Below, in pieces: positions 1 to 61,301 of a stretch of 64,000 bases of DNA. A model generated the notes under the pieces. It saw only the letters and a list, made by a program, of their open reading frames with translations. It did not search any database and was not told the origin of the DNA. Position 1 is the first letter of the stretch. Each line of letters begins with the position of its first letter. Position numbers and translations under genes: made by a program. Origin of the DNA: Apilactobacillus kunkeei DSM 12361 = ATCC 700308 (GTDB lineage: Bacteria; Bacillota; Bacilli; Lactobacillales; Lactobacillaceae); NCBI RefSeq assembly GCF_001281265.1, contig NZ_JXDB01000002.1, positions 186,001 through 250,000 on the forward strand, given 5' to 3'.

Positions 1-3000
1 ATGCTAACGATAAATCACCTGTATATGCGGTTGCGAACTCACAAGCATTAGCTAAGAAGGATGCAATGGATGCAATTAAAGCAGCCAACACTTCTGCTAA
101 TGGTACTGATCCACAACCAATTACTAGCGACAATGACCCAAGACTTGCAAATACTCCTGCAACTGATAAGGAATCATACAAGAATGCATTTAACGATGCT
201 ATCAAGGGTTACAACGCTGGTAAGAACAATGATTCAAGCGCTACACCAACTAACTCTGATCCAGCTGACCAACAAGCATTTAACGATGCTAAGGTTGCTG
301 GTGAAGCTGCTCGTGGTGCAAATGATGCATTGAACGGTAAGAAGGAAAATGCAGATGTTGCTTCTGATTTAAACAGCACTGATCCAGCTAAAAAGTCATA
401 CGCTCAAGGTGTTACTGATGCTAACAATGGTTACGCACAAGGTCTAAATGACGCAACTCCAATGAGTAGTGACCAATTAGCTAAGAAGACTCCTGCTTTC
501 CAAAAGGCCTACGCTCAAGGACAAGCTGACAAGGCCGGTGTTGATGCTGCTAAGTCACAATCAACTCCAGATGCTAACAACGTGCCAGATAACATCAAGA
601 ATAACCAACAAGCTGCTGACGCATACAAGGGTTACGCTGCTGCCGTTGCTGCAGTGAAAGCTGCAAAGGGTGACGCTACTAAGGCTTACCGTCCAAGTGA
701 CTTTGACTCACAAACCCCAGACTTCAAGGCTGCTTACCAAAAGGCAATCCAAGATGCTGTAGATGCTAACAAGGCTGGTCAAGATTCAATTGCTAACCCA
801 AGTTCAGCTGCTGCTCGTCCAAGTGACCCAGCATTAGCTGCTGTATATGATGCTGCTAAGCACGATACTAACAAGGGTATGGCTGAAGTATTAAGTGGTA
901 AGCAAGGTAATTCAGATTCTTCAAATCAAAACGAACAAGCCGGTATTCAAGCTGGTACCCAACTACAAGCTGCATACCAAGCTGCCGCTAAGGACTTTGC
1001 TGCTGGAATTACTGACCCAACTAATGCAACTCAAAAATTCAGTGATCCTGATCAAGTTCAAGCTTACAAGGATGCATTGGCTGGTATGAAGGATGGTTCA
1101 CAAACACCTGCTTCAGACCAAAATGATCCTAAGAGCAATTCACCAATTTATGCTATTGCTAAACAACAAGCACAAAACGTTCAAAACGCTGTCGCTGCTG
1201 CTCAAGGTAGTCAAAATGTTGCTGACGGTCATCCTAACCAGGATGCTGACCTAGCAAAAGCAACTGGTTACGACAACGATGACAATAAGCCTGACATGAA
1301 TGATGCATACACTGCTGCAGCTAACGCATACAGCGATGCAATCAACCATACAAATGGTGACAATCCTACAGATCAAAGCAAGTACAGTCCTGCTGATCAA
1401 ATGGCTTATGCTCAAGCTTACAAGGCTGCTAAGGATGCTGCTGCTAAGGGATTAACTGACTTTGGTAATGGTAACAAGGATCAACAACCAAATAACCCAG
1501 CTGATAAGGCTGCTTACAACAAGGCTCAAAGTGATGCTCTTGATGGTTTGAATGATGGATTAGCAAACAATGTCGATACTAATAAACAAGGTAACAACCC
1601 TGCATACAAGCAAGGTGTTGACGATGCTGCCGCAATCAAGAAAGCCGCTGAAGATGCCGTAAATGGTACTCCAGATGCTGGTAAGTCAAGCTTAGTTTCA
1701 GATGCTCAAAAGGCTGCTTACGATGCCATCAAACCTGCTGCTGACGCTGGTCAATCTGAATACACAAATAACCCAGATAAGTACGCTGGTAAGACTGGTG
1801 ACGCCTTGAAGACCGCCGCTAACCAAGCAGCACAAGATAAGTATCCAAACGATCCATTGAAGCAAGCTGCATTTGCTCAAGCAATTGAATCTGCTGGTGA
1901 CGCATTTGGTAACGGTGCTAGCGCATTCGGTAATGGTGAACAACAACCAACTGGTATTGCTGCTGCTGGTTACCAAGCTGCTCAACAAGCATACAATGCT
2001 GCAACTGACGGTACTGGTAAACCTGAAAAGGTAAACGGTCACTACCCAACTCCACAAGGTGTTACTCCTTCTGATCAATACGACAAGACATTTGATGCCG
2101 CATACGACAAGTACAAGGCAGCTGTAGATAACGCTGCTCAAGATACTGCTGCAAACGGTGGTACTGCTACTAAGGCTGATGACTCAAATGTTTACAAGAA
2201 CGCTACACCTAAGGAACAAGCTGCTTACAACGATGCTGCTACTAAGGCTGCTAAAGGTATTGCAGATGCTAAGTTAGACGACCCAACCAAGGATGCCCAA
2301 TACGGTACTACCAAGGATGGTAAGTTCGTTCCTAACGATGACACTGCTGCTCAAGCATACGCTGGTGCTAAGGCAGGTTATGCTGACGGTAAGACTGGTG
2401 CTACTAACGAACCAACCAACGTAAGTCCTGCTTACAAGGCTGCTTACGACAAGGCTAATGCAGATGCTAAGGCTGCTGCACATGCTGGTGTTGAAGACTT
2501 TGCACAAGGTTTACCTGCAGCTAAACCAACTGAAGATTCTCAAGCTGCTAGTGATGCTCACAGCAATGGTTTCAACCAAGCTGCTGCTGGTTACCAAGCT
2601 GCTATTAATAACCCATCAGGTGACTTCTCAAGTAACCCAGATGCAAGTTACCAAAAGGGTGTTGATATGGCTAAGGCTGCTGCCGCTGCTCGTGACAACG
2701 TTCTAAACAATGGTGACAACGCTCAACCTACTCAAGGTGAAACATCAACTGATCCAGATGTACAAGGAGCCGCTAAAGCTGCTGCTGCTGCCGCTAAGGC
2801 TGCATTAGCAGATGGTAAGAATGGTTTAGATAAGGTTACAAATACTGATCAAGTTCCTGATGAATTCAAACCATATGCTAAAATTTATGCGGATGCCTAC
2901 GCAACCGTTCAAGATGCTGCTACAAAGGCTGCTCAAAATGGTGCTTTAAACTTTGCTTCAGATGGTAAAGAAGGTAGTCATAACACTGATAATAACGATA

Positions 3001-5912
3001 AGTCAGTTGATGCTGTTGCTAACCAAAAAGGTTACGATGACGCTAATAAAGGTTACCAAGCTGCACAATCTAACCCAGATGAAGCTGCAAGTTCAAATTC
3101 AGGTTCTGTAAATGAAGATGAAGCTGCCAAGGGTGCTGCCGCCGCATTTAACGATGTTGCCGGTAAGGACAATGCTAAGCCAGGAGATCATGCAACTTCT
3201 GATAACAACCCTGTATACAAAGCTGCTTACCAAAAGGCATTAGCTGAAGGTAAGGAAAATGCTTCTGATGGTGCTGAAGCATTGTTCAACAATAACCCTA
3301 ATAACTCAACTGCAAACGCTTCAACATTAGCTAAGCCAAACGCAACTACTGCTGCAGATAAGGCATTTAACAAGGGTCTAGAAAATGCTAAGAACGCTCT
3401 AGCTGATGCTCAAGCAAACGATCCTTCTAAGGATGCTCAATACGCTGGTAACAATGCTGATACAGATGCTGGTAACGTATACCACGCAACTCAAGATGCA
3501 TACAACGCTGTATTGAATGGTCAACAACCATTAACAGCAAGTCAACTAGCTTCTAAGGATCCTGTATATGCTGCCGCATACAAGAACGCATTATCACATG
3601 CTCAAACTGCTTCAACTAATGGTGCTACTGACACTAACGATAACGGTTCATCATATGATCCAAATGTTTTTGCTAAAGCTGTTTACGAAAAGGCAAGAAC
3701 TGACGCAAACAAGGCATATAACGATGCTCTTGCAAACAAGGATCCAGAATTAAAGGATCACAATGGTATTGATAAGGGTTCAGTTGCTTACCAAGCCACT
3801 CAAAACGCTATCAATGACTACTTGAAGAACAACGGTAATGCTAAGGAGGATCCAACCGCTGCAGGCATGGATCCAGCTAATGCTCAAGCTTACAAAGCTT
3901 ACTATGAAAAAGCTAAGGCTGCAGTTGCCCAAGCTGCAACTGATGGTGTTAATGCTTACCTTGGGGGTAAAGCTATTGACGACGTTCCATCTGTTGAAGG
4001 TGACAATACTGGTTTAGGTCAAGTTGCTAAGGAAGCTGCAGAACGTGCTGAAAAGGGTCATGAAGATGCTGTTAACAACGATGGTCGTGTCAGCGATGCT
4101 AACCAACCAATCGCAACAGACCCATCTTACCTAACTGGTTTGAAGGGTGCCCAAGATGCTGCTAAAGGTGTTGCAGAAGCTAAGGCTGACGCAACTAAAC
4201 AACCTGATGTAGCTGCTCCTCAAGCTGAAAAGGACGGATTCAACGGTACTGTCGATGGATACAACAAGGCTGCAACTGATGGAAGTATCAAGCCTCAAGA
4301 TATCGATGCATATATCGCTGCTAACCTAGGTAACAAGTCAATTGCTTACCGTGACGCCTTCAAGAACGCATACCTAGATGGTCTAAAAGTTGCTAAGGCT
4401 GGTGCTGACGCTGCAAACGCAAACGAACCAGACGCAACTAACGGTCAAAATGGTGCAGCTCAAAAGGCTCAATCACAAGGTTACAAGGATGCAACTAACG
4501 CATTCCTAGACAAGCTACATGGTGTCGACGACAAGGACGCAACTTCAAATACTCCATCTTCTGTTGCTGGACGTCAAAGAGCTAGCCAATATCTACTAGC
4601 CCTACAAGATGTTGCTGAAGGTCATCCAAATACTGGTAGCACTGATCCTGATTACCAAAAGGGACTAGCTACTGCTCAAGCTGCTGTTGCTCAAGCTGTT
4701 GCTGATGCAAAGGCTAACAAGCAATTACCAGCTGACCTAAGTCAAATCCCAGTTCCAGATGGTTCAGACCCCGTTGCTTACCGTGATGCTTACGCTGGAA
4801 TTCTAAGTGGTTTCTACAACGGTTACAACAGTAAGTCAACTGATTCTGGTTCAACTGATGCTTACTACAACATCGCATTTGGTATCGGATATGCTAAGGG
4901 TAAAGCAAGTATCCCAACTGATACTTCAGCTCCTAGCGACTTCTTGAACAACAGAAAGATGCCAACAATCACAGATCCAGCTGTTGCTAAGGCATACAAG
5001 CAACAATATGACGAAGCTAAGTCTGGTTTCTATGATGCTCTTTACAAGAGAGGTTCTAAGTCAAATAATGCATACTACAAGGCAAGTTACAAGCTTGCTC
5101 AAGATGGTTTAGCTGGTATGAAACTAGCTGCTAAGGGTGATACCAAGGCCAACCGTGATCTTCTAAAGACCAAGGACGCTTCATTCGTCAATGGTTACAA
5201 CGGTTACCTAAAGGGTGTCGCTGCTGCTAAGAGAACTCTTAAGAAGAACAAGAAGCTTTCTGCTAAGGATCTTCTAAACAAGGATAAGCTATACAGCTAC
5301 ACCTTCAAGGAAGGTTTGAAACATGAAATCAGGATTCAAAGAAAGCATGGTAAGAAGTTCGGAACTAGAAGAGCGCTAGAACGCTTCGCAATTCCTAAGA
5401 ACATCTACACTCATCATTCTGAAAGCTATGCTCGCACATACGTTGCAACATACAAGAAGGAAATGAAGAGACACATGCCAAGATACATCTACAATGTAGG
5501 TACTATCTTTACGCATAACCATGTTAAATTCACTCGTCATACTCGAATCAGAAAATATGCTTACTCAGCAAGATACAATTCAACTGTATTCAGAGTAGTC
5601 GGCGTGAAGTACTACAAGAACCGTATCCCAAGATACCGTTTAAGCAATGGCGCTGTAGTAACTGCAAGTCAAGCAGTACAAAACGCTTACTACAAGAAAC
5701 ACTTTAAGAAGTATCGTGTAATCAAGCCTACGGGTGTGTTGATCCATACTGGTAAGACTTTCACTAAACGTAATTCAGTAAGAAGATTGTACAGAGGAGA
5801 AGTATTCCATGTACGTAAAGTGGTTAAATTCCATGGTATTACTCGTCTATACGTTGGTAAGAGTGCTTACATTACTTCTAACAAGACATTTGTCAAAGCA
5901 ATTATCAAATAA
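1..5912 (+). CDS. Giant secreted repeat protein, 3' part only (Ala/Tyr-rich stalk, basic wall-binding C-terminus)
   Basis: The reading frame is open from the first bases of the window (codons start at base 3), so the gene begins upstream; the first ATG, at 66, sits inside the repeats and has no ribosome site. At least 1,969 residues are visible. Bases 3 to about 5100 encode degenerate Ala/Asp/Gly/Tyr-rich repeats with AY, GY and GAAAAFNDV-like motifs, probably helical. From about 4745 to the stop the protein aligns by eye with the end of the next gene, sharing an IPVPDG-x-DP-x-AYR motif and the step into a Lys/Arg/Tyr-rich tail. The last about 150 residues hold two SLAP/DUF5776-like modules, the second ending GITRLYVG...YITSNKTFV. 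There is no LPXTG motif or C-terminal membrane helix, so I infer non-covalent wall attachment. No enzymatic motif was seen. Probably an adhesin or surface-coat protein paralogous to gene 2. Confidence 0.85.
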   Translation, partial: ANDKSPVYAVANSQALAKKDAMDAIKAANTSANGTDPQPITSDNDPRLANTPATDKESYKNAFNDAIKGYNAGKNNDSSATPTNSDPADQQAFNDAKVAGEAARGANDALNGKKENADVASDLNSTDPAKKSYAQGVTDANNGYAQGLNDATPMSSDQLAKKTPAFQKAYAQGQADKAGVDAAKSQSTPDANNVPDNIKNNQQAADAYKGYAAAVAAVKAAKGDATKAYRPSDFDSQTPDFKAAYQKAIQDAVDANKAGQDSIANPSSAAARPSDPALAAVYDAAKHDTNKGMAEVLSGKQGNSDSSNQNEQAGIQAGTQLQAAYQAAAKDFAAGITDPTNATQKFSDPDQVQAYKDALAGMKDGSQTPASDQNDPKSNSPIYAIAKQQAQNVQNAVAAAQGSQNVADGHPNQDADLAKATGYDNDDNKPDMNDAYTAAANAYSDAINHTNGDNPTDQSKYSPADQMAYAQAYKAAKDAAAKGLTDFGNGNKDQQPNNPADKAAYNKAQSDALDGLNDGLANNVDTNKQGNNPAYKQGVDDAAAIKKAAEDAVNGTPDAGKSSLVSDAQKAAYDAIKPAADAGQSEYTNNPDKYAGKTGDALKTAANQAAQDKYPNDPLKQAAFAQAIESAGDAFGNGASAFGNGEQQPTGIAAAGYQAAQQAYNAATDGTGKPEKVNGHYPTPQGVTPSDQYDKTFDAAYDKYKAAVDNAAQDTAANGGTATKADDSNVYKNATPKEQAAYNDAATKAAKGIADAKLDDPTKDAQYGTTKDGKFVPNDDTAAQAYAGAKAGYADGKTGATNEPTNVSPAYKAAYDKANADAKAAAHAGVEDFAQGLPAAKPTEDSQAASDAHSNGFNQAAAGYQAAINNPSGDFSSNPDASYQKGVDMAKAAAAARDNVLNNGDNAQPTQGETSTDPDVQGAAKAAAAAAKAALADGKNGLDKVTNTDQVPDEFKPYAKIYADAYATVQDAATKAAQNGALNFASDGKEGSHNTDNNDKSVDAVANQKGYDDANKGYQAAQSNPDEAASSNSGSVNEDEAAKGAAAAFNDVAGKDNAKPGDHATSDNNPVYKAAYQKALAEGKENASDGAEALFNNNPNNSTANASTLAKPNATTAADKAFNKGLENAKNALADAQANDPSKDAQYAGNNADTDAGNVYHATQDAYNAVLNGQQPLTASQLASKDPVYAAAYKNALSHAQTASTNGATDTNDNGSSYDPNVFAKAVYEKARTDANKAYNDALANKDPELKDHNGIDKGSVAYQATQNAINDYLKNNGNAKEDPTAAGMDPANAQAYKAYYEKAKAAVAQAATDGVNAYLGGKAIDDVPSVEGDNTGLGQVAKEAAERAEKGHEDAVNNDGRVSDANQPIATDPSYLTGLKGAQDAAKGVAEAKADATKQPDVAAPQAEKDGFNGTVDGYNKAATDGSIKPQDIDAYIAANLGNKSIAYRDAFKNAYLDGLKVAKAGADAANANEPDATNGQNGAAQKAQSQGYKDATNAFLDKLHGVDDKDATSNTPSSVAGRQRASQYLLALQDVAEGHPNTGSTDPDYQKGLATAQAAVAQAVADAKANKQLPADLSQIPVPDGSDPVAYRDAYAGILSGFYNGYNSKSTDSGSTDAYYNIAFGIGYAKGKASIPTDTSAPSDFLNNRKMPTITDPAVAKAYKQQYDEAKSGFYDALYKRGSKSNNAYYKASYKLAQDGLAGMKLAAKGDTKANRDLLKTKDASFVNGYNGYLKGVAAAKRTLKKNKKLSAKDLLNKDKLYSYTFKEGLKHEIRIQRKHGKKFGTRRALERFAIPKNIYTHHSESYARTYVATYKKEMKRHMPRYIYNVGTIFTHNHVKFTRHTRIRKYAYSARYNSTVFRVVGVKYYKNRIPRYRLSNGAVVTASQAVQNAYYKKHFKKYRVIKPTGVLIHTGKTFTKRNSVRRLYRGEVFHVRKVVKFHGITRLYVGKSAYITSNKTFVKAIIK

Positions 5913-5920
5913 TTGCTAAT

Positions 5921-5957
5921 AAAAAGAGCTACTGGATAATTTCAGTGGCTCTTTTTT
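5921..5957 (+). terminator. Intrinsic terminator of giant gene 1
   Basis: Eight bases after the stop codon lies a hairpin with arms AGAGCTACTG and CAGTGGCTCT (one G-T pair) around an AT-rich loop. It is preceded by an A run and followed by six T residues. It separates gene 1 from gene 2, so they are probably not one transcript. Confidence 0.85.
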
Positions 5958-5986
5958 ATATACTCATATTAAAAAGGAGAATAAAG

Positions 5987-6003
5987 TTTAAGATTTTTTT
6001 AAA
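5987..6003 (+). promoter_or_regulatory. TTTAAG-N5-TTTAAA direct repeat upstream of giant gene 2
   Basis: TTTAAG at 5987 and TTTAAA at 5998 are spaced 11 bp, one helical turn, about 120 bp before the start codon. A similar arrangement lies upstream of gene 3. The form resembles operators of OmpR-family response regulators such as streptococcal CiaR (TTTAAG-N5-TTTAAG). The region is very AT-rich, so chance is a real alternative. A possible -10 (TATAAA, 6090-6095) lies nearer the gene, without a convincing -35. Confidence 0.25.
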
Positions 6004-6103
6004 AATAAGTTTATTAAGCTTTTTTGATGAATAATAGAGTAGAATAGTGTTAAATTAAGATTAGAGTAATTAGACACTTTGTATAGTTATATAAAATCGT
6101 GAC

Positions 6104-6111
6104 AAAAGGGG
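6104..6111 (+). promoter_or_regulatory. Ribosome binding site that fixes the start of gene 2
   Basis: AAAAGGGG lies eight bases before the ATG at 6120. A GTG at 6099 in the same frame precedes this site and would add seven residues with no counterpart in the paralogs, so 6120 is the start. Confidence 0.8.
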
Positions 6112-6119
6112 CGATATGT

Positions 6120-9100
6120 ATGCAATATAACAAAAATCAATTCATAAAATCTAACGATAAAAAGATCATGAAAAAGGTAAAGAAACAATGGGTAGTAGTA
6201 TCTATTGCGACTTTGTCTGTTTTGGGTGCATCAGCATATGGCATGAATAGTATTTCTGCTAAAGCTGATGACAATACACAACAAGTGGTGCAATCACCTA
6301 ATAACATTTCTAATGATTCAGGGGATAAGTCTACCCAAAATAAGGATAATTCTAATAATGATCAACAATCTGATGATAATCAATTAAGTTACCGTGATGG
6401 AGATAATTCATCATCAAGTAATGTTGATAATACTGATAACTCAGCACAATTTAGCCAACAAATTAATCAAGGTGCTAATGATGCATACAATAAAAAGGGC
6501 GATAATTCAATTAATTATAGTGGCCAAGCAAAAGATTATTACCAAGCTGGATATGCTGGGGCTATTAGCGCAATGAATGCATACAACACCGATACTAAGG
6601 GTCAAGGTACAGGTACGCAAGATACAACATACTATGGTAATACACCAAATAAACCACAGGGTTACACTGGTAACACCTCAGATGGTGCTAAAGGTGACAG
6701 TGGTGGTGTTAACAATACTACTAATCAGGATACTGGATCTGGCAATAATACATCATCTACCAATTTACCAACTGATGGAACTCCCATTAACTATGGAACC
6801 CCAAGTAATCCTAACCAGGGTGGTGCAGATGATACCAAGTCAGGATATGCTTCTTCTCAAAAGTATCAAGACACTCTTTTGGGTAGATTAAATAGTGTTA
6901 ACAACCATAGTGTGCAATTTACTAATGGATTTACTATTAATGTTCCAGCCGCTAACGATGTTTTAATTACCAATGACAGGAACAAGTACGCCCAAAAAGC
7001 AGGATTAGCTACTGCTTTTGATCAAGGGGTGAACTACGCTTTAACCCAACAAGGTTATGCTGATGCTGAGGCCGGTAAGTGGACTGGTGTCAGAGGAGAT
7101 GGGACTACTACGTCATATGACTTCTATGATAATGGTAGTACGGATTTACACACATCTAAAAATCCATATGACTTGGCATATATTGGTGCTAAGGATGCTA
7201 TTAATGCACAATATGATGGCAGTAATAACTACCTAAAGAATAACTTGCCAAGGGCAATCACTTCATCTCAATATGGTTCAGCATATGTAACTGGTTACAA
7301 TGATGTTGTTTCAAACATTAACCAAGGAGTAGCTTATGTTACTAATTCAAACCAATTTATTGCGGTAATGACAAATGGAAAAGCTAGTTATTCATCTGGT
7401 GGTAGTACTCCTGGAAACGTTACTACCGTTAAATTAGCTGCCGATGTTGATTTTACGGGTGCTCCATTCGTAGGTGAATCTAATAACATTTACACAGGTA
7501 ATAACGGTCCATTCACTGTTGACGGTCAATTCCATATGTTGGATATGCATGGTGTTAGTTATAAAATCACTAACGCAAGCCAAATTAATTTACAAAACTT
7601 CCAAGCATTGTATGGATATAATTTCTATGGGCCTTTTGCCCCTGTAAATAGTTCTCAAACGCTTCACTATAAGAACTTAAATTATATTGGGTCTCAATTA
7701 TTAAGTGCTACTAGCAATGACACATATTTTGCTGGTAATGTTAACGTGCTAGTACCACAAGATTTAGTGACTCCAACTTATTATTCGCCTTTTACAGGAT
7801 CTAATGGTGTAGCAGTAGAAGGTGGCGGAAATCAAGAAAACCTTGAAATTAACAACTTTATCCTCGAACCAAATGCTAACTATTTCGGTACTGTTGCAAG
7901 ATCAATTGGTGCTACTATAATTAACGCAAACGGGAACGTTACCTTAGGACAAGGTTCTAAGATGACTTTAATTCCACGAGGCCAAAATAATGGTAATAGT
8001 ACTTTTGATGGTGGAGACTGGGGTATCTATTTCTCCGGTGGAGGTCAATTAAATGTTAATAAAGATGCCACTTTGAATATTATTCCAAGTTATTCACAAT
8101 ATGGTGGTAGTAATTTCGCCGGTGGGGGTATCTCAACAGCTGCACCTACAACAATTAATGTTAATGGTGGTGCCATTAATTATATTGTTGATTCCATGCA
8201 ACCAAACATCTATAACCAAGTACTTGATTTTAAGTCTCGTACAGTAGTTAATGTCTTAAATGGTGGATTAATCCAAATTAAGTTAACTAATAACCCTGGT
8301 CAAGCACCTTCGTACAACGGTATTATCAACTTTGCTGCTGGTGGAGGAATGAATGTTGGAAACCGTGGTAATTTAATCGTTGAAACCGATAGTACTGGTC
8401 AAAAAATGACACCATTCTTTGGTACTCTAAACATCAATAACGTTGGTGCGAGTCATGTTGTTTTAGCAAAGAACCCTAATACAGGTTCATTTAGTAATAA
8501 CGCAATTAGTGCATATACAGTTTCTGTAGATAATAAATTATTCTATTATTTCAACTTACCTTCTGGTTCTACTAACTATACAGGTATTGATAGCACTGGT
8601 AAAAGTGTCTCTGGAAAAATTACAGACCCTAATAGACTTGAAATTGGGGATGTTCCCTCAGTTTCGTTTGTTGGTCCTATTAGTAAAACCATTAATAGTG
8701 ATGGAACTGGCACGGTGACCGCTTACGCTAAAGTTGCAAAATATGACCCATCAAATGGTCCAATCTATGTTGGTGTCTACACTGGCTTTAGTTCTTCGGT
8801 TGTAACAGTACCAAATAGAATGCTTAATAATCCAAGTAGTGGATCTACCATTACTAATGGTAATGCTCCTGCTGATCCAAATAGTTATTCAGATACTAAG
8901 GCACTACCTTCTAATTATCAAGATGGACAAGTTGTTCCTATTACATTTACTATTCCTAAATCATTGGTAAATAATCCATTTACTGGAATTAGACTTACTT
9001 ATGGAATTAGTACTGTTACACAAACCACCGATGGTAAGACCTATACAAATGTTACCGAAGGGTATAACAAGGGATCTAACGGTAAAGTTCAATATGATAG

Positions 9101-48467: not shown

Positions 48468-48472
48468 AATCT

Positions 48473-48709: not shown

Positions 48710-48717
48710 CCTTTTCA

Positions 48718-54700: not shown

Positions 54701-57700
54701 GTTCATATGCTAAAGAAGTAATTTATCTAAATAATAAGTACCAACAAGGTTCACAAACTGCTGCCAACAGCATCAGCGCACTTCAAAGTTATGCAAGCAG
54801 CTTATCTTCAGCTAACGCTAACTTAATTAGTTCATTGAACAGTTCTTATGCAACTAAGCAAAATCAACTTGCTCAATCATATGAAGCAGCGCAATCAGAT
54901 GCAGTTAAGGAGGCTGTCGATGCCGCCAACAGTTTGGCAGCGCAACAATCAACAGCTGCTTCAATTGCTAACTCACAAGCTCTAGATGCTGCCAGAAGCA
55001 AGGCATCTGCTGATAGTCAAAATGCTTCATCATCAGCACAAGCAGCTATCCAAAAGGCTGTTGACGATGCAATTGCTCAAGCTCAATCAGTCGCTGCTGC
55101 ACAATCTAGTGCAACATCAACTGCTAACTCACAAGCATTATCTGCAGCAATCTCAAAGGCAAATGCTGATAGTTTACAAGCATCATCACTTGCTAAGTCC
55201 ATCATGGATTCAGCAATCGCTTCAGCCCAAAAATCAGCGCAAGATTCAGCCAACTCAGTCTTTGCTCAACAATCATCTGCAAACTCTCAATCATTGTCTG
55301 ATGCACAATCAAAGGCTGTAGAGGATAGTATTTCTGCTTCAAATTATGCAAACTCACTAATGAGTCAAGCCATTGCTTCAGCACAATCAGCTGCCAAATG
55401 GGTGACTGATGCGCAAATTAAGCAAATCGAAGATTCATACGCTAAGATGCTAAATGAACAGACTAATCAATACCAAGAAAATCTAAATGAAGCAAGCAAA
55501 GCAGCTGTCTTAGAAAGAGATACAGCGGTATCATCAGCACAATCATTTGCTAGAAGTATCGCGGAACAACAATCAATTGCGGTTGCAGCTGCAAACTCGC
55601 AAGCATTAGTCGATGCCCAAAGTAAGGCTAAACAAGATAGCTTGATGGCTGATAGTCTATACAACATCAAGATAAGTGCCGCTAGCATTGCTGCTCAACA
55701 ATCAATTGCAGCAGCATTGGATAGTCAATCAGTTGCCAACTCAATAGCATTGAGTTCTGCTCAAAAAAAGGCAATCGATGATAGTTCAGCTGCATCGAGT
55801 CGTGCCGAATCCGTTAAGAATTCGGCATTGGATTCCGCAAGACAATCAGCGCAAGATTCAGCCAACTCTTTGATTTCTTCACTAAACAGTGCCAACCAAG
55901 CTGCAATTTCAGCCGCTCAACAAAAGGCTCAACAAGATAGCTTAGCTGCACTACAAAGTGCACAAAGTGCAATCGATTCTGTTCGTGAAGCACAAGGAAG
56001 TTTAGCTGCTTCACAAATCGCTTCACTACAAGCTAAGTATGAAGATGAATTGAGTTCAGCAAGACAACAATCAACTGCTGACAGTATCGCAGCGAAAAAG
56101 AAGGCAGAAAGCGATATTGCAGACGCCATTTCAGCTGCCAAGAGTTTAACTTCATCACAAGCTCAAGCAACAATTGATTCAATCAATGCTGAGAACTCAC
56201 AAGCTAAAAGTGAAGCAAGAGCTAAGTCAGTTGCGGACAGTATTGCAGCATCTAATAGTGCTCAAGATGCCATTTCAGCTGCTAAATCATTGGCAGAAAG
56301 TATTGCTAACTCAAACATTGCTTCATTGAATGCTGCCAACTCACAAGCATTGGTCGATGCTCAACAAAAGGCATACAACGACAGCGTTTATGCTTCAAAC
56401 AATGCTGACTCAATCCGCAGTTCAGCAGTTTCAGTCGCTAAATCAGCTGCAGAAAGTCTAGCAAGTTCACAATCAACTGCAACTTCAATTGAAAACTCAC
56501 TAGCATTATCAAGTGCTAACTCAAAGGCTAAAGCTGATAGTGAAGCCGCTTCATCAATTGCTCAATCCGTAATGAATTCCGCAATTAACTCAGCTTCAAG
56601 TCATGCTGCTAGCGTTGCGAAGTCTATCGCAGATTCATACACTGACTCATATGCAAAACAAGTTCAGGCATTGAATGATCAAACTTCATCTCAATCATTA
56701 GCTGCTAGTCAAGCAATTGAAGATGTGAGAAATGCGATGAACATTTCAGCTCAGGCTCAATTAGATCGTTTGGCGCAATCAAATGCTTCAGCTCAACAAG
56801 CTATCAAGAGCAACTACGATAGCTTAGTTGCAAATGAACGTAGTAAGGCTCAATCAGTAATCGACAGCGCTGCATCAAGTGCAGCCAGCGTTGCTAAGAG
56901 TATCGCTGACAATGACATGAACGCTCAAAAGGCTTCACTAGAAAGTCAATACTACGCTTCATCAAATGCTGCTAACTCAACATTTGCTAGTCAAATGGCA
57001 TCATTGAGTTCACAAGTTGAAAGCGATAAGCAATTAGCAATAGCTCAAGCTAACTCACAAGCAGACAGTATGATGGCTGAAAAGAGAGCTGAATACTCAA
57101 GTAGAGTTGCTTCATTGAACGCCCAAAGAGATGCCGAATTGAGTTCTCAAGCTAAAGCTAACGAGGAATCAATGAGAAGTGCACAAAGTGTTGCAGCTAG
57201 TCAAGCTGACTCACAAGCTCAAGTAATTAGAGATTCACTTGCAAACAAGTATGAAAATGCGATTAACATTATCAAGGCACAACAAGAAACAATGTCCATT
57301 GCTGCCATGAATAATGAAGAATCGAAGCTAGGTAGCCAAGCTGCTTCATTGAACGCCCAATATCAAGCTCAATTGGCAGAAGTAACCAAGTCATTAAACG
57401 ATAAAAATGCTGGTAACGAGTCGTTGATTAACCAATACAAAGCACAAATTGATCAACTAAATGCTCAATTGAACGATGTGAAGGCAAACAACAGTAAGTA
57501 CTACTCAACTAACGAACCTACAAATGACTACATTGTTTCGGACCATAATGGTGTTTGGGTTTACGGTAGTAAAGAATTCAACAAACACGAACGCAAACGT
57601 TTCATGCGCTATGGTTCTGAATTCAAGGTTGAAAATGTAGTTGAACGCAATGGAATTACTAGACTATATCTAGGTAATGGTGAATACGTCACTTCAAACA

Positions 57701-58107
57701 AGAAGTACGTTGCACTAAGAAATGACTTTGATAATGTTCCTAAGTATGTTTATAGCTTAAATGCTGATAGAAGACATACATCAGTCCACAAAGTTTCAGC
57801 TTACAGATATGCAAATGGTCATTTGCAATTGAAAATTCGTGGTAAGTATGTGGATAATACTGATTATGCAGATGGTTATTATGCTGTTGAACCACAAAAC
57901 AATGACAGATACTATCGCGTAATTAGACACCAAGGAATTGTTATCTATAACAGTCCAGTTTTCGCCAAGAAGCATTCCGTTGGAAAGATTAGTTCCAACA
58001 GAAGAATAAAAGTCGAAAAAGTCGTTCACTACAAGGGCATCACCAGACTATACATTGGTCATGGTAAGTACATTACTGCTAATAAAACTTGGGTTAAAAA
58101 AGAATAA
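48718..58107 (+). CDS. Giant Ser-rich surface protein of 3,129 residues (beta-repeat head, coiled-coil stalk, wall-binding C-terminus)
   Basis: The start is TTG behind GAGGAGGTG. The signal matches genes 2 and 3 (Y3-N4-K5, N12-D13-K14-K15, W24-V-V-V-S28; likely cut after N-A51). Residues about 55-135 are a Ser/Thr/Asn linker. About 180-822 are beta modules (VxFVDxNG...HGxG...NNYY...NGQYQVxVNP), the last four on an exact 65-residue period. About 825-2925 are Ser/Ala/Gln/Asn/Asp-rich with regular hydrophobic residues and few Gly or Pro, which predicts a long coiled coil; QDSANSLAQS, ATSIANSQA and IDSLQSKA motifs recur. Residues about 2937-3129 hold three basic modules ending GITRLYIGHGKYITANKTWV. 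There is no LPXTG, and I noticed no cysteine. The composition recalls Ser-rich repeat glycoproteins but lacks the simple SASxSAS dipeptide pattern. The convergent glycosyltransferase pair makes it a likely O-glycosylation substrate, by inference. Confidence 0.88.
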   Translation: MKYNKRKIRKLNDKKMLKKVKKNWVVVSVSSFALFGVAGLTLMTTQVSANADGTTKGQAATIMDQSTYSSSQSKSPVVTSNTSSTSSSQGSSNSIQDSSSALSENTSVTSSSNVQSNLDTNNSQSSNSNNSLTGVSLSEAQAIIDQMASSAQSNIDSNAAVYRDNLAQGLSYRDNFSANPISVYFNDVNGNQPLGGGASYAYVANNTNPNNFQILNSATPNANGVNQLNNVNNVTNPGFTYVLNSSIAPGKNNLGTPQLIVETKGTNPTFLTPVSFVDANGNAITGTNGNPAIGMAILNSSNNALQKVTNYYNINGNSYVANVGSQLSMNSNYNYVVTLVPAAKPKPLNFYNTNGQLVATGTVNINNDGSISNTYTLGNLQNQYYYVPNASTPNVTADANNSGQYAVTVNQQTATLNFVTPNNQILTDSSNNQLTGSVYLNSDGSTTINDTTSINGSGYHVAPNAKVVAKGNGTYSIAVLKNARTSTVTFTSKGVPVVDNSGNTVIGQVNVNGNNVPQLVDYGNLANSNYHISPNGQLIKDANDDNFTMEVVLNKLSNFANATFVDGNGVSHGQGTITFDSNNNSKLIDNGSLDINNYYVVNGQVTNVNGQYQVLVNPDVVNKQASLTFVDANGNAHGTGLVAFDANNNPKIASVGTFDSNNYYMINGQVVTVNGQYQVVVNPYSISSTLPVYFVDSNGVNHGQGSIVLNANNTPRLVDNGTFDSNNYYMTTGQIINNNGQYQINVSPTVNVVYYPIQFMDSTGKSINGQGQVAVFNGNTNNPVITSVTSLDNNYYLNNQNITGHVLPQLWKGTAYVYVLPKPQFADSLAASSSSSAAAYIQSSQAALSQSITNAINSASSQANSIANSIAASNSAIASANYQKSLTTLQNQSLQESQQASSYAQSLIASANSALQSLSSSASIDKDNAISQTLTSVQSSAQSVQDSLNSRNAQQLAQLQSQYNNSLAAASNQAVIDKSNAVQSATDSINAVSRQKISDINAQNQQILNSLNQKSIADSQAAQTLADSLRSSAVASVQQSAADVMTQLTSQNQSLTNSLNTSYQTALQTLSDSANTAINSAATSAANSISASAEGVLTSTIASLQAQYAQSSSAQQAQYQAASTAASQAAQTAINSAITSITSSANDTFAKQSANNSSEIQSLLNKSTADSKAASQQAAQNLADALSAASETAKQNADSLVKSITDSNNAAIAALQQKGESDSKAASDSATAAINSAVQSAIEDANAKSTATSIANSQAVDQLKAKYKSDSIQASNDAQSQMSSAVKSAQDSANSLAQSKAQQNQSAIDSLQSKATQDSINASNSADAAISQAADNAKSLAESKAAEDSKAVSLANSQKINDLQSQYNSSMQSAQSSATDAMNSAVKSAQDSANSLAQSVAQQKQSVIDSLQSRAIQDSINASSSAQSAIFQAVQQAQIDAQAKADADSKAVSLANSQAIVDLQSKAQDDLNNASQQANSAMRSAIKSAQDSASSEAAQLSLANAKSIEDLTNKSIADSKSAAQKAQDELNSAVASAISSVQNDADSKIASLSAENSKAIDAINAQKSYELNQAQSSANTAISDAVSKASSKASSQASTEFSAQSSANSVAIDDLNKKKEQDLSNAADSAQSAISSAVKSAQDIASQQASEQIQSIADDNARTISSLNQKVIDDSNAAVSLMNSTVNAAVLQAKSQAQSIAAAQSTATSIANSKAIEDLIAKSQSESSAASVNAENDKNSAVSSAQQVLNDSYQAQITSLNTDYDKIINELRNEISKANQSLADLESSASAQNSLNSSAITSLSSASSAASSQATYDSSVAASSYGSVVASYEAVINSLEADKDNASNEVIKYQQQLSSMQNNFNATISAAQSAAQEAALQSSAAISQAASKASSIAAEQSKNSYEQSVAVEAARSSAIAERQSIANSYSDYISNLQNESQASSAAAQAKIDSATSQMNSYSNKITSLMADSLAAALKNSLAITEANHKADSIASSYAKEVIYLNNKYQQGSQTAANSISALQSYASSLSSANANLISSLNSSYATKQNQLAQSYEAAQSDAVKEAVDAANSLAAQQSTAASIANSQALDAARSKASADSQNASSSAQAAIQKAVDDAIAQAQSVAAAQSSATSTANSQALSAAISKANADSLQASSLAKSIMDSAIASAQKSAQDSANSVFAQQSSANSQSLSDAQSKAVEDSISASNYANSLMSQAIASAQSAAKWVTDAQIKQIEDSYAKMLNEQTNQYQENLNEASKAAVLERDTAVSSAQSFARSIAEQQSIAVAAANSQALVDAQSKAKQDSLMADSLYNIKISAASIAAQQSIAAALDSQSVANSIALSSAQKKAIDDSSAASSRAESVKNSALDSARQSAQDSANSLISSLNSANQAAISAAQQKAQQDSLAALQSAQSAIDSVREAQGSLAASQIASLQAKYEDELSSARQQSTADSIAAKKKAESDIADAISAAKSLTSSQAQATIDSINAENSQAKSEARAKSVADSIAASNSAQDAISAAKSLAESIANSNIASLNAANSQALVDAQQKAYNDSVYASNNADSIRSSAVSVAKSAAESLASSQSTATSIENSLALSSANSKAKADSEAASSIAQSVMNSAINSASSHAASVAKSIADSYTDSYAKQVQALNDQTSSQSLAASQAIEDVRNAMNISAQAQLDRLAQSNASAQQAIKSNYDSLVANERSKAQSVIDSAASSAASVAKSIADNDMNAQKASLESQYYASSNAANSTFASQMASLSSQVESDKQLAIAQANSQADSMMAEKRAEYSSRVASLNAQRDAELSSQAKANEESMRSAQSVAASQADSQAQVIRDSLANKYENAINIIKAQQETMSIAAMNNEESKLGSQAASLNAQYQAQLAEVTKSLNDKNAGNESLINQYKAQIDQLNAQLNDVKANNSKYYSTNEPTNDYIVSDHNGVWVYGSKEFNKHERKRFMRYGSEFKVENVVERNGITRLYLGNGEYVTSNKKYVALRNDFDNVPKYVYSLNADRRHTSVHKVSAYRYANGHLQLKIRGKYVDNTDYADGYYAVEPQNNDRYYRVIRHQGIVIYNSPVFAKKHSVGKISSNRRIKVEKVVHYKGITRLYIGHGKYITANKTWVKKE
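50404..51180 (+). repeat. Four 65-residue beta repeats in gene 4
   Basis: Copies begin at about 50404, 50599, 50794 and 50988, spaced 194-195 bp. Each has (T/Y)FVDxNG, (H)GxG, NNxx(K/R), NNYY and GQYQ landmarks; the fourth is diverged. More degenerate relatives fill 49255-50400. Confidence 0.85.
51190..57490 (+). repeat. Ser/Ala/Gln-rich coiled-coil repeat region of gene 4
   Basis: About 2,100 residues of imperfect repeats. The clearest period is 300 bp: the blocks starting at 52561 and 52861 differ at 19 of their first 120 bases by hand count, and a third related block starts at 53161. A second marker (GATTCAAAGGC, then GTTTCT) recurs at 52760 and 53060, again 300 bp apart. The QDSANS motif reappears near 55240 and 55850. 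Confidence 0.75.
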
Positions 58108-58109
58108 TA

Positions 58110-58143
58110 AAAAAGCTCCTATCGACTAGATAGGGGCTTTTTA
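58110..58143. terminator. Bidirectional terminator between giant gene 4 and the glycosyltransferase operon
   Basis: A hairpin of about 14 bp (AAAAAGCTCCTATC paired with GATAGGGGCTTTTT, one mismatch-type pair) closes a five-base loop. It has A/T runs on both sides, so it works in either direction. Two convergent units end here: the stop of gene 4 at 58107 and the stop of the glycosyltransferase at 58150. Confidence 0.88.
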
Positions 58144-58149
58144 TTTGGT

Positions 58150-59664
58150 TTAAATAGTTTCAAAGAATTGATTCCATTGTTTCATGACATTGTCAGCGCT
58201 GAACTTATCAGCTTTTTCAATGGCGTGTTCACTTTGTTGCTTGTGTTTTTCATCGTTAGTTAGGATATCGATGACTTGACTAGCAAACCTACCTAGGTCA
58301 CCTGATTCAACTAGTGATCCGTTCTTGTCGTTATCGATAATTTCGTTTGGACCATAGTTAACATCGTAGGCAATCTCAGGAATTCCGTAAGCTAGACCTT
58401 CGATTAGTGCCATACTTAGTCCTTCACCTTTGGATGATTGAACTAGGACACGCGTCTTTTCTAAGATATTTTGTTTGTCTTGACCTGTTTTGTAATCAAT
58501 CATCGAGACGTTGTCAGCAACATCTAGTTGTTTGATAATTTCATCTAATTCGTTCTTGAATTGACCAGATTCGAAGTATCCCATCATGGTTAAGTGGACA
58601 TCTGGAATGGTTTGCTTAACGGCGGGGATGATTGAGATTAATTCGGCAACGTTCTTGTCTCTAAAGACACGACCCATATAAGTGATTTCATGGTTGGTAA
58701 CGTCTGAAGCTGGCTTATGCATTTCAAAGATGGCGGCATCAAAGATGTTGTAAAAGTTCATCTTTGGATAGCGTTTTTGTAAATCAATTTTTTGGGCTTC
58801 AGTAGGGGTGATAACACCTTCGTAACTTTTTTGATAGTTATCAAATAGTGGATTTAAGTTGTCGAATAACTTCGCATTTGGATTACCAGCTTGTGTGGGA
58901 TCTTCTGTATGTTCGTTATGCATGATTTGATATTTATGTTTGGTAGCTTTAACTTCACCAACGGCAACTGTTAATGAAGGACGATCATTGATAATGATAG
59001 TATCTTTATCAGATATTTCGTTTAGGAAAAATGTGAATAGTTCGTCTTCAGTATTGAAACGGAGAGTTTTACCCTTGTAGTTAAGTAGCTTGTACATGGT
59101 AGGCATTAGTTGTTCACCAATGTTCATGTGGGTGATTTCCATGACCGGATCACCATCCTTGTTTAAAACTAGTTCGTGTCCGATGTTGCCATCCGGATGC
59201 ATGTAGATGGTTTTTGATTTGAAACCACGGTAGTCAAAGACGTCTCGACTGGAGACATTAGCGAAGTTATCGTAGTAATCGACGTTTCCAATTTCACCAA
59301 TAGTAAGAGGGAAGATGGAAACCTTGGCCACACGTTGACCTAATTTTTCGATGTATGACTTGTTGTTGTCGACACCGTTAATTTTGTATTCATGCTTGTC
59401 GACAAGGTTGGAATATCTTAGGTATTCATGGTGTCTTTTAGGACCCATTTCACCTTGGAAGTAGTCGTACATATTGATGATATCGCCATCTGCGATACCG
59501 TATTTTTGAATTTCTTGATGCAACGAAGGGTTGTAATTTCTGGTAACAATCTTGGCATCAACGTTATTTTTTTTAAACAGTTTGATTCGGTTCATGGCTG
59601 AAAATTCAGTTCCCGAATTGAATGTAAAAATATTTTCATTCACGAATAAAAATTTCTTGCTCAT
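58150..59664 (-). CDS. Glycosyltransferase, family GT4, TagE/GtfA type (second gene of pair)
   Basis: 504 residues, full length for the family. The N-terminal half carries the TagE-like opening (a Ser-Gly-x-E motif near residue 20, then NPSLH, GIADGD and MYDYFQG). An extended beta-meander follows at about 140-200 (FDYRGF, then YxxPDGNI). The C-terminal half is a GT-B fold donor domain with E414-G-x6-E422 (the EX7E motif) and DVNYGPNEI, which bind the sugar nucleotide. Family members act in the cytoplasm as poly(glycerol-phosphate) glucosyltransferases (TagE) or as protein O-GlcNAc transferases (GtfA; in Lactobacillus plantarum the former TagE5/TagE6 pair acts in protein O-glycosylation). It starts two bases after the upstream gene's stop, with its GAGGAGG site inside that gene's last codons, so translation is coupled. 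Next to the giant genes, protein glycosylation is the better guess; wall teichoic acid glucosylation remains possible. Confidence 0.85.
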   Translation of the reverse strand: MSKKFLFVNENIFTFNSGTEFSAMNRIKLFKKNNVDAKIVTRNYNPSLHQEIQKYGIADGDIINMYDYFQGEMGPKRHHEYLRYSNLVDKHEYKINGVDNNKSYIEKLGQRVAKVSIFPLTIGEIGNVDYYDNFANVSSRDVFDYRGFKSKTIYMHPDGNIGHELVLNKDGDPVMEITHMNIGEQLMPTMYKLLNYKGKTLRFNTEDELFTFFLNEISDKDTIIINDRPSLTVAVGEVKATKHKYQIMHNEHTEDPTQAGNPNAKLFDNLNPLFDNYQKSYEGVITPTEAQKIDLQKRYPKMNFYNIFDAAIFEMHKPASDVTNHEITYMGRVFRDKNVAELISIIPAVKQTIPDVHLTMMGYFESGQFKNELDEIIKQLDVADNVSMIDYKTGQDKQNILEKTRVLVQSSKGEGLSMALIEGLAYGIPEIAYDVNYGPNEIIDNDKNGSLVESGDLGRFASQVIDILTNDEKHKQQSEHAIEKADKFSADNVMKQWNQFFETI

Positions 59665-59666
59665 GA

Positions 59667-61301
59667 TTAGACCTCCTCAGTGTGTTCCATATCACTTAGA
59701 CCTTTTTTGATATCGAAGTGGTATGTCTTTAGTTTGTCTTGCCAGGTCTTCTTAGCAGAATCGATTAGTCGTTTCCAATCTGCCCAAACACTGTCTTCTG
59801 AGAAACGGTTTGATAATTCATAAGCTTGATCTGACATCTTTTGTAGTAATTCATCATCGGTAAATAGTTTGACCATTCTGTCTGATAGGGCCTTGGTGTC
59901 GTCGTAATCAACGACGTAACCATTTTCGTTATCGACGATTAGTTCGTTTGGACCGTAGTTGGTATCAAAGGTAACACCAACGTCACCTTGTGCTTGAGCT
60001 TCCATTAAAGCAAGGTTGAAACCTTCCATGACAGAGGCTAGGGCGTATAGTTGAGCATTTCTTTGCACACCAGTAACGTCATTGGTGTAGCTGTGTAGGT
60101 GAACAGCATCCTTTAAATCATATTCGTCTAATGATGCGTTAATGCGCTTCATTGCGATATCGTCGTTGGAGTGGTCAACATATCCGTAGACATCCATGTT
60201 GATGTCGGGAACTTCTTTTTTGGCCATTCCCATGGCGTCGATAATTTTGTTGATTTGTTTTTCAGGAGCAACTCTGGCAGTTACTACGATACTGTGTTTC
60301 TTACGATCCTTCATTGGGATGCGTTGACCTTGTAGATCTTCGTTTTTAATTACACCAACGGGGATGGTAAACATATCGACTGCTGGGTCGAAACGACGTT
60401 TAACGTCTTTAGTTTGTTTTTCGGTAGCAGAAACAATCGCGTCGTATCTGTTAGCGTCGGTTAGTGAGTATTCGTAGTTGTTGTTCATGATTGAAGTATC
60501 GGGTTCTTGAGCGTCACCGGCATGTGAGTTATGTAGATGCAAGACGGTGTAGGTAGGAGAACTCAAGTTTTCCAGGATTTCTTCAAAGTAATCAGAACGA
60601 TCCATCACGTAGATGTTTGGATGGTCTTTGTCCATGAATTCAACGTTAACGTCTTCAAGGAATTCTTGAAGTAATCCCACAATGTTGTTGTGAGTACGAA
60701 CAGTGCCGTTTTCATCGATGGTCTTAAAACCAGATTTTTCCATTTTACCTTGGGCGTTTAATCTGAAGTAGTCTTCGATAGCGGGACGACCTTCAGGGGT
60801 GTACCAAGTTTCAGTCGCAATCTTGTTGTCAGGAGTATACCATTGTGCCATTGATAGAAAACCACGGTAGTCGTAGAAATCAACACGGTAAAGGTTAGCG
60901 AATCCATCGAATAGTTCGACAGACTTAACTATGTGATCATTGGTAACATCCTTATCGAATAGGTTGATACGAGCGACGATTTGGTTCTTGCTGTAGACAA
61001 TCACACGGTTATGATTTATTTCTTCTTCGTATCTTAGATTAGAGACACCAAAGTTAATGTCTTTTGGACGGATTGTCTTCTTTTGTACATCGGTAGCTTT
61101 TTGGAAATAATCGAAAATATTTAGGATATATTTATCCGCAATGCCGTTATTGTTTAAATGGAAGTGTAGTAGTGGGTTCCATTCACGAAAGACTAATCGG
61201 TAGTCTTCGCCGAATTTTTCGAATAGTTTTGCGCGTTTTAACTGGGCGTGTTCAATCCCGGAGTTTTTTGCATTAAAGCTAGAATTTAAGAAAAAATTCA
61301 T
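59667..61301 (-). CDS. Glycosyltransferase, family GT4, TagE/GtfA type (first gene of pair)
   Basis: 544 residues, related to its downstream partner throughout. Landmarks are SGIEHAQLKRAKLF near residue 15, NPLLH, GIAD and IFDYFQ in the first 70 residues; a beta-meander domain at about 145-195 (FYDYRGFLS, then YTPDNK and YTPEGRP); a linker with LHLHNSH near 280; VTARVAPEKQ opening the donor domain; and E426-G-F-x5-E434 (EX7E) followed by TNYGPNEL. Both partners keep EX7E, unlike classical GtfB, which usually lacks it, so both may be catalytic. AAAGGAG (61310-61316) lies eight bases before the ATG. A possible -10 TATAAT is at 61333-61338 on this strand. No SecA2/SecY2 or other accessory Sec genes lie in the window. 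The substrate is not shown by sequence; the giant proteins are the nearest candidates. Confidence 0.85.
   Translation of the reverse strand: MNFFLNSSFNAKNSGIEHAQLKRAKLFEKFGEDYRLVFREWNPLLHFHLNNNGIADKYILNIFDYFQKATDVQKKTIRPKDINFGVSNLRYEEEINHNRVIVYSKNQIVARINLFDKDVTNDHIVKSVELFDGFANLYRVDFYDYRGFLSMAQWYTPDNKIATETWYTPEGRPAIEDYFRLNAQGKMEKSGFKTIDENGTVRTHNNIVGLLQEFLEDVNVEFMDKDHPNIYVMDRSDYFEEILENLSSPTYTVLHLHNSHAGDAQEPDTSIMNNNYEYSLTDANRYDAIVSATEKQTKDVKRRFDPAVDMFTIPVGVIKNEDLQGQRIPMKDRKKHSIVVTARVAPEKQINKIIDAMGMAKKEVPDINMDVYGYVDHSNDDIAMKRINASLDEYDLKDAVHLHSYTNDVTGVQRNAQLYALASVMEGFNLALMEAQAQGDVGVTFDTNYGPNELIVDNENGYVVDYDDTKALSDRMVKLFTDDELLQKMSDQAYELSNRFSEDSVWADWKRLIDSAKKTWQDKLKTYHFDIKKGLSDMEHTEEV

Follow-up and report, generated by a model that had tools for sequence, protein, structure and literature searches.

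The window analysed here, a 64,000-nucleotide stretch of the 1.5-Mb genome of Apilactobacillus kunkeei (G000:C2:186001-250000, G000 being the source genome), holds part of an array of giant surface-protein genes and, facing the last of them, Giant5, a tandem pair of glycosyltransferase genes, gt2 and gt1. We consider it probable that the pair encodes a two-subunit system for protein O-glycosylation in the cytoplasm, of the GtfA/GtfB-SdgB type, whose main substrate would be the adjacent Ser/Ala-rich Giant5 and not the whole giant set. N-acetylhexosamine (HexNAc), probably N-acetylglucosamine (GlcNAc), would be transferred before export onto serines on one face of the helical Giant5 stalk; the modified protein would exit via the ordinary SecA/SecYEG machinery with a degenerate KxYKxGKxW-type signal, and would dock on the wall through basic DUF5776/SH3b-like modules. 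The evidence consists of homology, gene order, residue conservation and periodicity, and bears on the following features.

48718..58107, plus strand: Giant5, 3,129 amino acids from a TTG start, Ser/Ala-rich, with a DUF5776 end; proposed main substrate of the pair.
51418..57267, plus strand: Giant5 stalk, residues 901-2850, with 421 Ser, 58 Thr, 5 Gly and 0 Pro and a hendecad periodicity.
58110..58142, no strand assigned: hairpin of 14 pairs between the convergent stops of Giant5 and gt1, with an A-run on one side and a T-run on the other.
58150..59664, minus strand: gt1, 504 amino acids, glycosyltransferase group 1; proposed GtfB-like partner subunit, the faster evolving of the two.
59667..61301, minus strand: gt2, 544 amino acids, glycosyltransferase group 1, separated from gt1 by a 2-base gap; proposed GtfA/SdgB-like catalytic subunit.

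Both gt1 and gt2 carry the glycosyltransferase group 1 domains PF00534 and PF13692, and gt2 is 98% identical to the gt2 of A. kunkeei LMbo and of A. waqarii HBW1. The best solved relatives of both form a single sequence group (7ec1, 7vfk, 7vfm and 7vfn, with the near-identical 7ec3/7vfl and 7ec7/7vfo), and 7vfk-7vfo are described as Staphylococcus aureus SdgB (PMC8561734). E-values were 5.9e-43 (gt1) and 1.9e-53 (gt2) for this SdgB group and 1.5e-21 and 4.7e-20 for TarM, while GtfA (Gtf1) ranked above TarM for gt2 and below it for gt1. Against NCBIfam models, gt1 and gt2 scored 211.8 and 247.3 bits for SdgA and 190.3 and 223.4 bits for SdgB (cut-offs of 800, both models being of the narrow "exception" type), and 81.2 and 171.7 bits for GtfA (cut-off 574.6); on these scores, the two proteins are relatives, not members, of the named SdgA, SdgB and GtfA groups. 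A Pfam scan at E<=1e-3 returned no row for the DUF1975 beta-domain, though SdgB aligns full length with both proteins.

Comparison of 74 tandem pairs from 68 genomes points to a division of labor between the two subunits. The catalytic R, K and E-x7-E positions are each retained in 74/74 loci for gt2, and in 74 (R), 66 (K), 64 and 66 (the two E) of the 74 loci for gt1, the gt1 of the window keeping all four. gt1 was less conserved than gt2 in 2,648 of 2,701 comparisons among these loci, and the gene order gt2>gt1, which is also the order of transcription in the window, is found in 71 of the 74, with the window's gt1 convergent with Giant5. In the GtfA/GtfB system, a catalytic subunit works with an acceptor-binding partner (PMC5796085), and by analogy gt2 would be the catalytic, GtfA/SdgB-type O-glycosyltransferase and gt1 the partner that binds the acceptor.

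The pair is already in print: PMC12863079 places tarM and gtfA downstream of the giants, and by position gt1 is one of these two. The same report calls both genes "glycosyl hydrolases", and its three passages containing "glycosyl" name no role for them. Judged by domain content and nearest relatives, "glycosyl hydrolases" is wrong for both genes and "tarM" is not the closest label, and the printed annotation is corrected accordingly. The "tarM" label hints at TarM-like glycosylation of wall teichoic acid, a role that we regard as very unlikely. It would fit the TarM homology (E ~1e-20) and the presence of PF04464 (teichoic acid polymerase) genes in 16/16 Apilactobacillus genomes, but SdgB is closer than TarM for both subunits, the two-subunit organization and the linkage to Ser-rich proteins count against it, and the two genomes lacking the pair, G002 and G006, also carry PF04464, so that making this polymer does not always require the pair. 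As a separate observation, 15 of the 16 genomes encode a ~1,680-amino-acid frame with two PF04464 domains (G000:C7:239765-242047 and relatives), which in G006 is broken into 1,448 and 272 amino acids.

The distribution of the pair is broader than that of the giants. Within Apilactobacillus, DUF5776 was found in 16/16 genomes and the tandem pair in 14/16 (16 pair loci, G003 and G012 having two each), the pair-less G002 and G006 having one distant glycosyltransferase homologue and a weak generic glycosyltransferase match, respectively. Of 301 sampled genomes of the family, 132 had gt2 relatives (E<=1e-70), 74 had gt1 relatives and 83 had DUF5776 (E<=1e-6). A scan by genus, based on gt2 only and on the best 80 of 204 loci, placed gt2 relatives in Weissella, Pediococcus, Oenococcus, Leuconostoc, Lacticaseibacillus, Secundilactobacillus, Ligilactobacillus, Limosilactobacillus, Periweissella and Lactococcus, among others, with L. 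plantarum absent among these 80. DUF5776 accompanies the pair in 10 of the 54 pair-bearing genomes outside the genus and is absent from the other 44. A preliminary description of this DNA had proposed that the pair accompanies the giants as a set and modifies all of them; the pair however occurs regularly without DUF5776 giants (44/54 outside genomes), the pattern which that description had itself named as refuting, and giants occur without the pair in 2 of the 16 Apilactobacillus genomes; this platform-wide link is not supported. Gene order instead suggests a narrower association, between the pair and a Ser-rich giant.

This narrower association was apparent from the genes adjoining the pair. 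A Ser-rich neighbor (at least 400 amino acids, with at least 18% Ser in some 150-residue stretch) was found on the gt1 side of 27 of the 72 loci counted, i.e., 13/16 within the genus and 14/56 outside, against a mean of 7.3 and a maximum of 16 when a random non-glycosyltransferase open reading frame (ORF) of at least 150 amino acids was drawn from the same locus (10,000 draws). The gt2 side had 2 Ser-rich neighbors. The 72 counted are those of the 74 loci with a gt1-side neighbor before the contig end (all except L083 and L088), the gt2-only loci L127 and L128 contain no pair, and outside the genus 58 of 66 gt1 rows were fetched (leaving out G017, G081, G087, G113, G183, G197, G199 and the partial G227:C13). 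Without the 400-residue minimum, the count was 30/72, including proteins of 176-179 amino acids (L069, L070) and a 225-amino-acid fragment (L102). Ser alone was scored, as Ser+Ala does not cleanly part Giant5-like from Ala-rich stalks; the Ser+Ala fraction of Giant2, for instance, is 0.38 over 400 residues. A 14th genus case is A. ozensis (G008), whose neighbor, read whole, has 5,919 amino acids (19% Ser, 20% Ala) and a full KxYKxGKxW signal (39.6 bits). Eleven of the 14 genus neighbors have 15-19% Ser and 16-22% Ala.

The orientation of these neighbors differs between the genus and its relatives. Outside the genus, 14/14 Ser-rich neighbors lie downstream of gt1 on the same strand, while 12/13 within it are convergent with gt1. 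N-termini were scanned for nine of the 14 outside neighbors (all but L091, L092, L106, L110 and L119), with eight matching KxYKxGKxW (35-42 bits) and one YSIRK. In nine of the 14 the ORF extends beyond the fetched DNA, the C-termini of those nine being unseen, and an LPXTG motif was identified at the C-termini of L091, L118 and L119, on the next ORF at L092 and L110 and, outside these 14, in L102, L072 and L128. The simplest scenario that we infer from this is an ancestral order gt2-gt1-adhesin, kept in A. ozensis and at one A. timberlakei pair, followed in the A. kunkeei group by inversion of the adhesin gene and replacement of its sortase anchor by DUF5776 modules, so that in most Apilactobacillus species the Giant5 gene would have been turned to face the pair. 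Giant5 is best seen as the Apilactobacillus version of a wider lactobacillar set comprising gt2, gt1 and a Ser/Ala-rich adhesin, typically with KxYKxGKxW and LPXTG. PMC12863079 reports strong matches to Giant5 in A. apinorum and A. bombintestini alone, with the SH3b-like end alone matching elsewhere; the protein now stands beside a broader class of adhesins.

At L072, a 2,014-amino-acid LPXTG protein with a 45% Ser stretch (2153-8197) lies just upstream of gt2, and its N-terminus (YNRNQF...KAGKGW) is by eye intermediate between the giant signal and KxYKxGKxW, with no TIGR03715 match at E<=0.01 and no YSIRK. In G003, one pair sits with a Ser/Ala-rich DUF5776 gene away from the array (L047 2298-8759, i.e., G003:C1:140297-146758), and the array itself has another, more divergent pair, next to a relative of 1,367 amino acids.

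These data also bear on which other proteins the pair might modify. That it glycosylates all giants, as first proposed, now appears improbable. In favor of that proposal, the locus is shared by several Apilactobacillus species and the giants carry Asn/Ser/Gln-rich stretches after the signal, yet the giants of G002 and G006 lack a pair, it is the Ser-rich member that lies next to the pair in the A. kunkeei group, one G003 pair locus has this gene as its sole giant within the 24 kb read, and no 150-residue stretch has more than 16% Ser in Giant3 or 15% in Giant4. Alternatively, the pair may be a general O-glycosylation system acting on several exported low-complexity proteins, including the N-terminal Ser-rich segments of Giant1 and Giant2 and the Ser-rich tails of GH70 glucansucrases, in which case its place beside Giant5 would be largely historical. 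We give this about one chance in four: Lactobacillus plantarum Gtf1/Gtf2 are described as acting on many proteins, with HexNAc located in Acm2, an SH3b autolysin, within its Ala/Ser/Thr-rich domain (PMC5796085), the GH70 enzymes of A. kunkeei end in repeats rich in Ser (PMC12849098) and have KxYKxGKxW signals (PMC10496945), and Giant1 and Giant2 reach 20% and 25% Ser per 150 residues near the signal (from residues 26 and 76). What argues against it is that Ser-rich genes adjoin the pair far more often than expected within the locus, and that this adjacency is kept in Apilactobacillus despite changed orientation and place, e.g., with both G003 pairs each beside its own DUF5776 gene (16-17% Ala, 11-15% Ser).

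Several observations weigh against the proposed system with Giant5 as main substrate, some of them in favor of the general system. Outside the genus, 42 of the 56 loci have no large Ser-rich gene on the gt1 side, so the pair often has other substrates. Within it, three of the 14 neighbors are Ser-rich in part (second G003 pair, 11%; G009, 9%; first G012 pair, 11%), and neither the A. xinyiensis (G014) pair nor the second pair of A. timberlakei (G012) has an adjacent giant, G014 carrying an 808-amino-acid DUF5776 fragment (15% Ser) at the edge of another contig. Over 400 residues, Ser reaches at most 19% in the giants of G002 and 17% in those of G006, and maxima of 22-27% in the pair-bearing G000, G003, G008, G009 and G012, but the Ser thresholds were set after looking, the pair-less class is two genomes, and G002 has both a giant in which a patch of 150 residues reaches 33% Ser and its lone distant glycosyltransferase homologue. 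The loci are also phylogenetically non-independent, with 7 of 17 genus groups positive. Finally, gt1 and gt2 fall far below the NCBIfam cut-offs of SdgA, SdgB and GtfA, the Giant5 signal (15.8 bits) is under the TIGR03715 cut-off of 18, the Giant5 serines do not follow the alternating SxS pattern of classical serine-rich repeat (SRR) stalks, and no report of a glycan on any giant was found in open-access PMC full texts. Tying the pair to Giant5 yields a single prediction, namely that Giant5 carries O-HexNAc and the other giants largely do not.

The stalk of Giant5 offers a possible acceptor surface. Residues 901-2850 are 22% Ser, and periodicity at 11/3 residues is clear for both Ser (power 3.1) and hydrophobic residues (4.0), against shuffle maxima of 2.0 and 1.9. 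The two signals are 157 degrees apart, with a coherence of 0.70 (shuffle mean 0.25; 0/1,000 shuffles as coherent), while at period 3.70 the same coherence is 0.61, below the largest of 300 shuffles (0.67). Because Ser and hydrophobic residues recur in antiphase, the predicted acceptor is one face of a long helix. We therefore propose that the Giant5 stalk is a one-sidedly glycosylated helix, with its glycan face opposite a weakly hydrophobic one, through which it could associate with a second helix. SxS is depleted in this region (35 vs. 91 expected) and SxxxS enriched (179), and no DSD motif was found in these residues, whereas classical SRR stalks are reported to have alternating serines (PMC6973325). 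Identification of Giant5 as a classical SRR protein was accordingly rejected, on Ser spacing and anchor.

Ser/Ala-rich neighbors at five other loci show a helix-like Ser spacing as well, with lag 2 depleted and lags 3, 4 and 7 enriched. Giant5 and its Ser/Ala-rich counterparts beside gt2-gt1 might then form a class of "glycohelices": very long single or coiled helices that have one continuous serine face, receive O-glycans on it from a dedicated GtfA/GtfB-like pair in the cytoplasm, and are exported, in Apilactobacillus at least, without accessory Sec. We advance this joint reading only tentatively, because in Giant5 the enrichment falls on lag 4, with none at lags 3 and 7 (period 3.7, against 3.4-3.7 in the five others) and because hydrophobic periodicity is weak in those five stalks. 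If true, it would describe a stalk architecture distinct from both extended SRR glycoproteins and bare coiled-coil fibers. PMC12863079 predicts a 2,000-residue single helix for Giant5 from AlphaFold models that presumably included no glycans; should the one-sided helix really carry them, glycan-blind predictions miss the surface of this protein.

The three complete giants of the window (Giant3, Giant4 and Giant5) agree at 13 of the 17 positions of a core, NDKKxxxKVKKxWVVVS, in their N-terminal export signal, and "almost invariant", as the signal was first described, applies to this core only; over 52 residues identity is 38-62%. Against TIGR03715, Giant4 passes the cut-off with 19.1 bits, Giant3 (17.1) and Giant5 fall below it, and PF19258 gives 18.0 bits on Giant5 (cut-off 23.6). 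The common N-terminus of the giants is, as far as these scores tell, a degenerate relative of the KxYKxGKxW signal, a term with 0 occurrences in the main text of PMC12863079. A 1,139-amino-acid LPXTG protein (G000:C2:52654-56073; L063 655-4074) has an N-terminus that resembles the giants' (TIGR03715 13.5 bits, below cut-off); a signal of this type may therefore not be limited to giants, and may serve sortase-anchored proteins also.

A role for accessory Sec was considered and rejected, as no SecA2 exceeded the cut-off in any of the 16 Apilactobacillus genomes (TIGR03714, cut-off 930; SecY2 was not searched for). Each genome has one SecA-like TIGR03714 match at 912-922 bits, just under the cut-off of a model that also matches in 10 of 14 control genomes, and this match, if single copy, must be the housekeeping SecA. 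With no SecA2 over cut-off, the ordinary Sec machinery is taken as the default export route for the giants.

Giant5 and the pair probably form separate, converging transcripts, given the hairpins that flank Giant5. The one at 58110-58142, within a fold at 58095-58165 with a z of -4.5 vs. shuffles, is likely a shared terminator of Giant5 and gt1, and a second, of 17 pairs, lies between Giant4 and Giant5 (48473-48510). Past the pair come a 145-amino-acid ORF and then rlmD. A small ORF of ~76 codons (61457-61687, plus strand) lies between gt2 and the 145-amino-acid ORF, on the strand opposite to its neighbors, with a good ribosome-binding site by eye and a terminator-like hairpin 3' of it at 61711-61739.

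Upstream of Giant5, the window contains the end of Giant2 and the whole of Giant3 and Giant4.

3..5912, plus strand: C-terminal part of Giant2 (Ala-rich stalk and DUF5776 end), 1,969 amino acids, open at the window start.
6099..31148, plus strand: Giant3, 8,349 amino acids as listed from a GTG, with a conserved MQYNK start at ~6120.
31476..48467, plus strand: Giant4, 5,663 amino acids, TTG start, with a stalk of beta domains according to PMC12863079.

That giant genes are known in A. kunkeei, as the preliminary description had it, is borne out: ORFs of >3,000 amino acids with a shared signal and a DUF5776 end stand in an array next to rlmD, and the observation is real and confirmed as the known giant1-5 cluster, largely in print already (PMC4494060, PMC12863079). 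Its "four giant proteins" correspond to the four giant ORFs in the window, while the array holds five, the partial gene being the end of Giant2 (full ORF 4,579 amino acids, starting upstream) and Giant1 lying wholly upstream (7,522 amino acids from the first start codon, in an open frame of 7,535). All five were detected by proteomics in strain A0901 (PMC10496945). Giants make up ~6% of the genome of A. kunkeei, a honeybee symbiont (PMC12863079). The apparent TTG starts of Giant4 (31476) and Giant5 (48718) directly precede the conserved QYNK/KYNK signal. A sixth DUF5776 giant of 3,363 amino acids was identified ~86 kb upstream of the five-gene array (G000:C2:58984-69075; L063 6985-17076), with an export signal of the same kind, a C-terminus 21-34% identical to those of the other five, and related C-termini in G004, G007, G013 and G015.

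The analysis supports the view of the giants as secreted and probably wall-docked surface proteins that share an export signal and basic ends. According to PMC4494060, every giant has a signal peptide and, at the C-terminus, 60 conserved residues, and PMC12863079 describes a Sec/SPI signal and positively charged DUF5776/SH3b-like ends. The common basic C-terminal modules were recovered here as DUF5776 (PF19087) in all four giants of the window (E 7.5e-14, 6.4e-11, 3e-29 and 3.3e-27).

5493..5894, plus strand: two DUF5776 modules of Giant2, one over the Pfam cut-off and one just below.
30666..31133, plus strand: two DUF5776 modules of Giant3, one over the cut-off and one below.
47601..48452, plus strand: three DUF5776 modules of Giant4, two over the cut-off and one just below.
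57499..58095, plus strand: two DUF5776 modules of Giant5, both over the Pfam cut-off.

Stalk composition classes differ as originally noted, with Ala-rich Giant2 (20.0% Ala in the part within the window) and Giant3 (14.5%), N/T/V-rich Giant4 and Ser-rich Giant5 (17.6%). The structural labels come from PMC12863079 (alpha-helical repeats in Giant1-3, beta domains in Giant4, and a beta-solenoid near the N-terminus of Giant1-4), periodicity having been computed, among the stalks of the window, for Giant5.

Shared ends on unlike stalks had suggested a platform with constant export and docking and an exchanged exposed part. The shared signal and basic ends stand, and are published (PMC4494060, PMC12863079); the exchange of stalks is not supported. 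In 50 C-termini and 33 N-termini from ten Apilactobacillus genomes, with array positions labeled from gene order and ORF size (G002, G006, G008, G009, G012 and short DUF5776 proteins, whose position was not assignable, being left out), C-termini at the same position in different genomes share a mean identity of 75.6% (141 pairs), against 35.9% for different positions within one genome (113 pairs) and 36.1% between genomes (971 pairs). For N-terminal signals, identity is 83.5% at the same position (79 pairs), 54.2% at other positions in one genome (49 pairs) and 55.1% at other positions in other genomes (400 pairs). Trees of both ends group mainly by array position and not by genome, except for a few Giant1/2-type ends of G003, G005, G007 and G001 that fall between position groups. 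Since ends track array position across genomes, each giant inherits its own ends with its own stalk, and the ends are, on this evidence, a shared ancestral kit strongly constrained at the signal core, not a fixed frame for exchanged stalks. Ongoing stalk exchange, with gene conversion of the ends within one genome, is most improbable: the signal core and DUF5776 family are common to all giants, and PMC12863079 reports short recombination events inside genes in the A. kunkeei population, but stalk exchange runs counter to the clustering by position, and PMC4494060 likewise found giants closer to their positional homologues.

Among known systems, the published A. kunkeei Giant1-5 cluster (PMC4494060, PMC12863079) is the same locus, agreeing in gene order, sizes, signal, DUF5776/SH3b ends, stalk types, tarM/gtfA and rlmD. 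The staphylococcal SdgA/SdgB O-GlcNAc transferases, which act on serine-aspartate (SD)-repeat adhesins, include the closest solved relative of both subunits and likewise comprise two linked enzymes beside a Ser-rich surface protein; here, in contrast, scores are far below the cut-offs, catalytic residues are relaxed in one subunit in some lineages, and the stalk lacks DSD. The GtfA/GtfB system of SRR glycoproteins with accessory Sec is similar in its catalytic and partner subunits, as proposed here for gt2 and gt1, in a Ser-rich stalk and in a KxYKxGKxW-like signal, and differs in that no SecA2 exceeded the cut-off here, that a C-terminal motif scan found no LPXTG anchor on Giant5, and that Ser spacing is helical and not alternating. 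In L. plantarum, Gtf1 and Gtf2 are similarly described as two proteins for intracellular HexNAc transfer onto Ala/Ser/Thr-rich domains, including that of the SH3b protein Acm2, in what is presented as a general system (PMC5796085), and by that description they resemble the gt2-gt1 pair proposed here.

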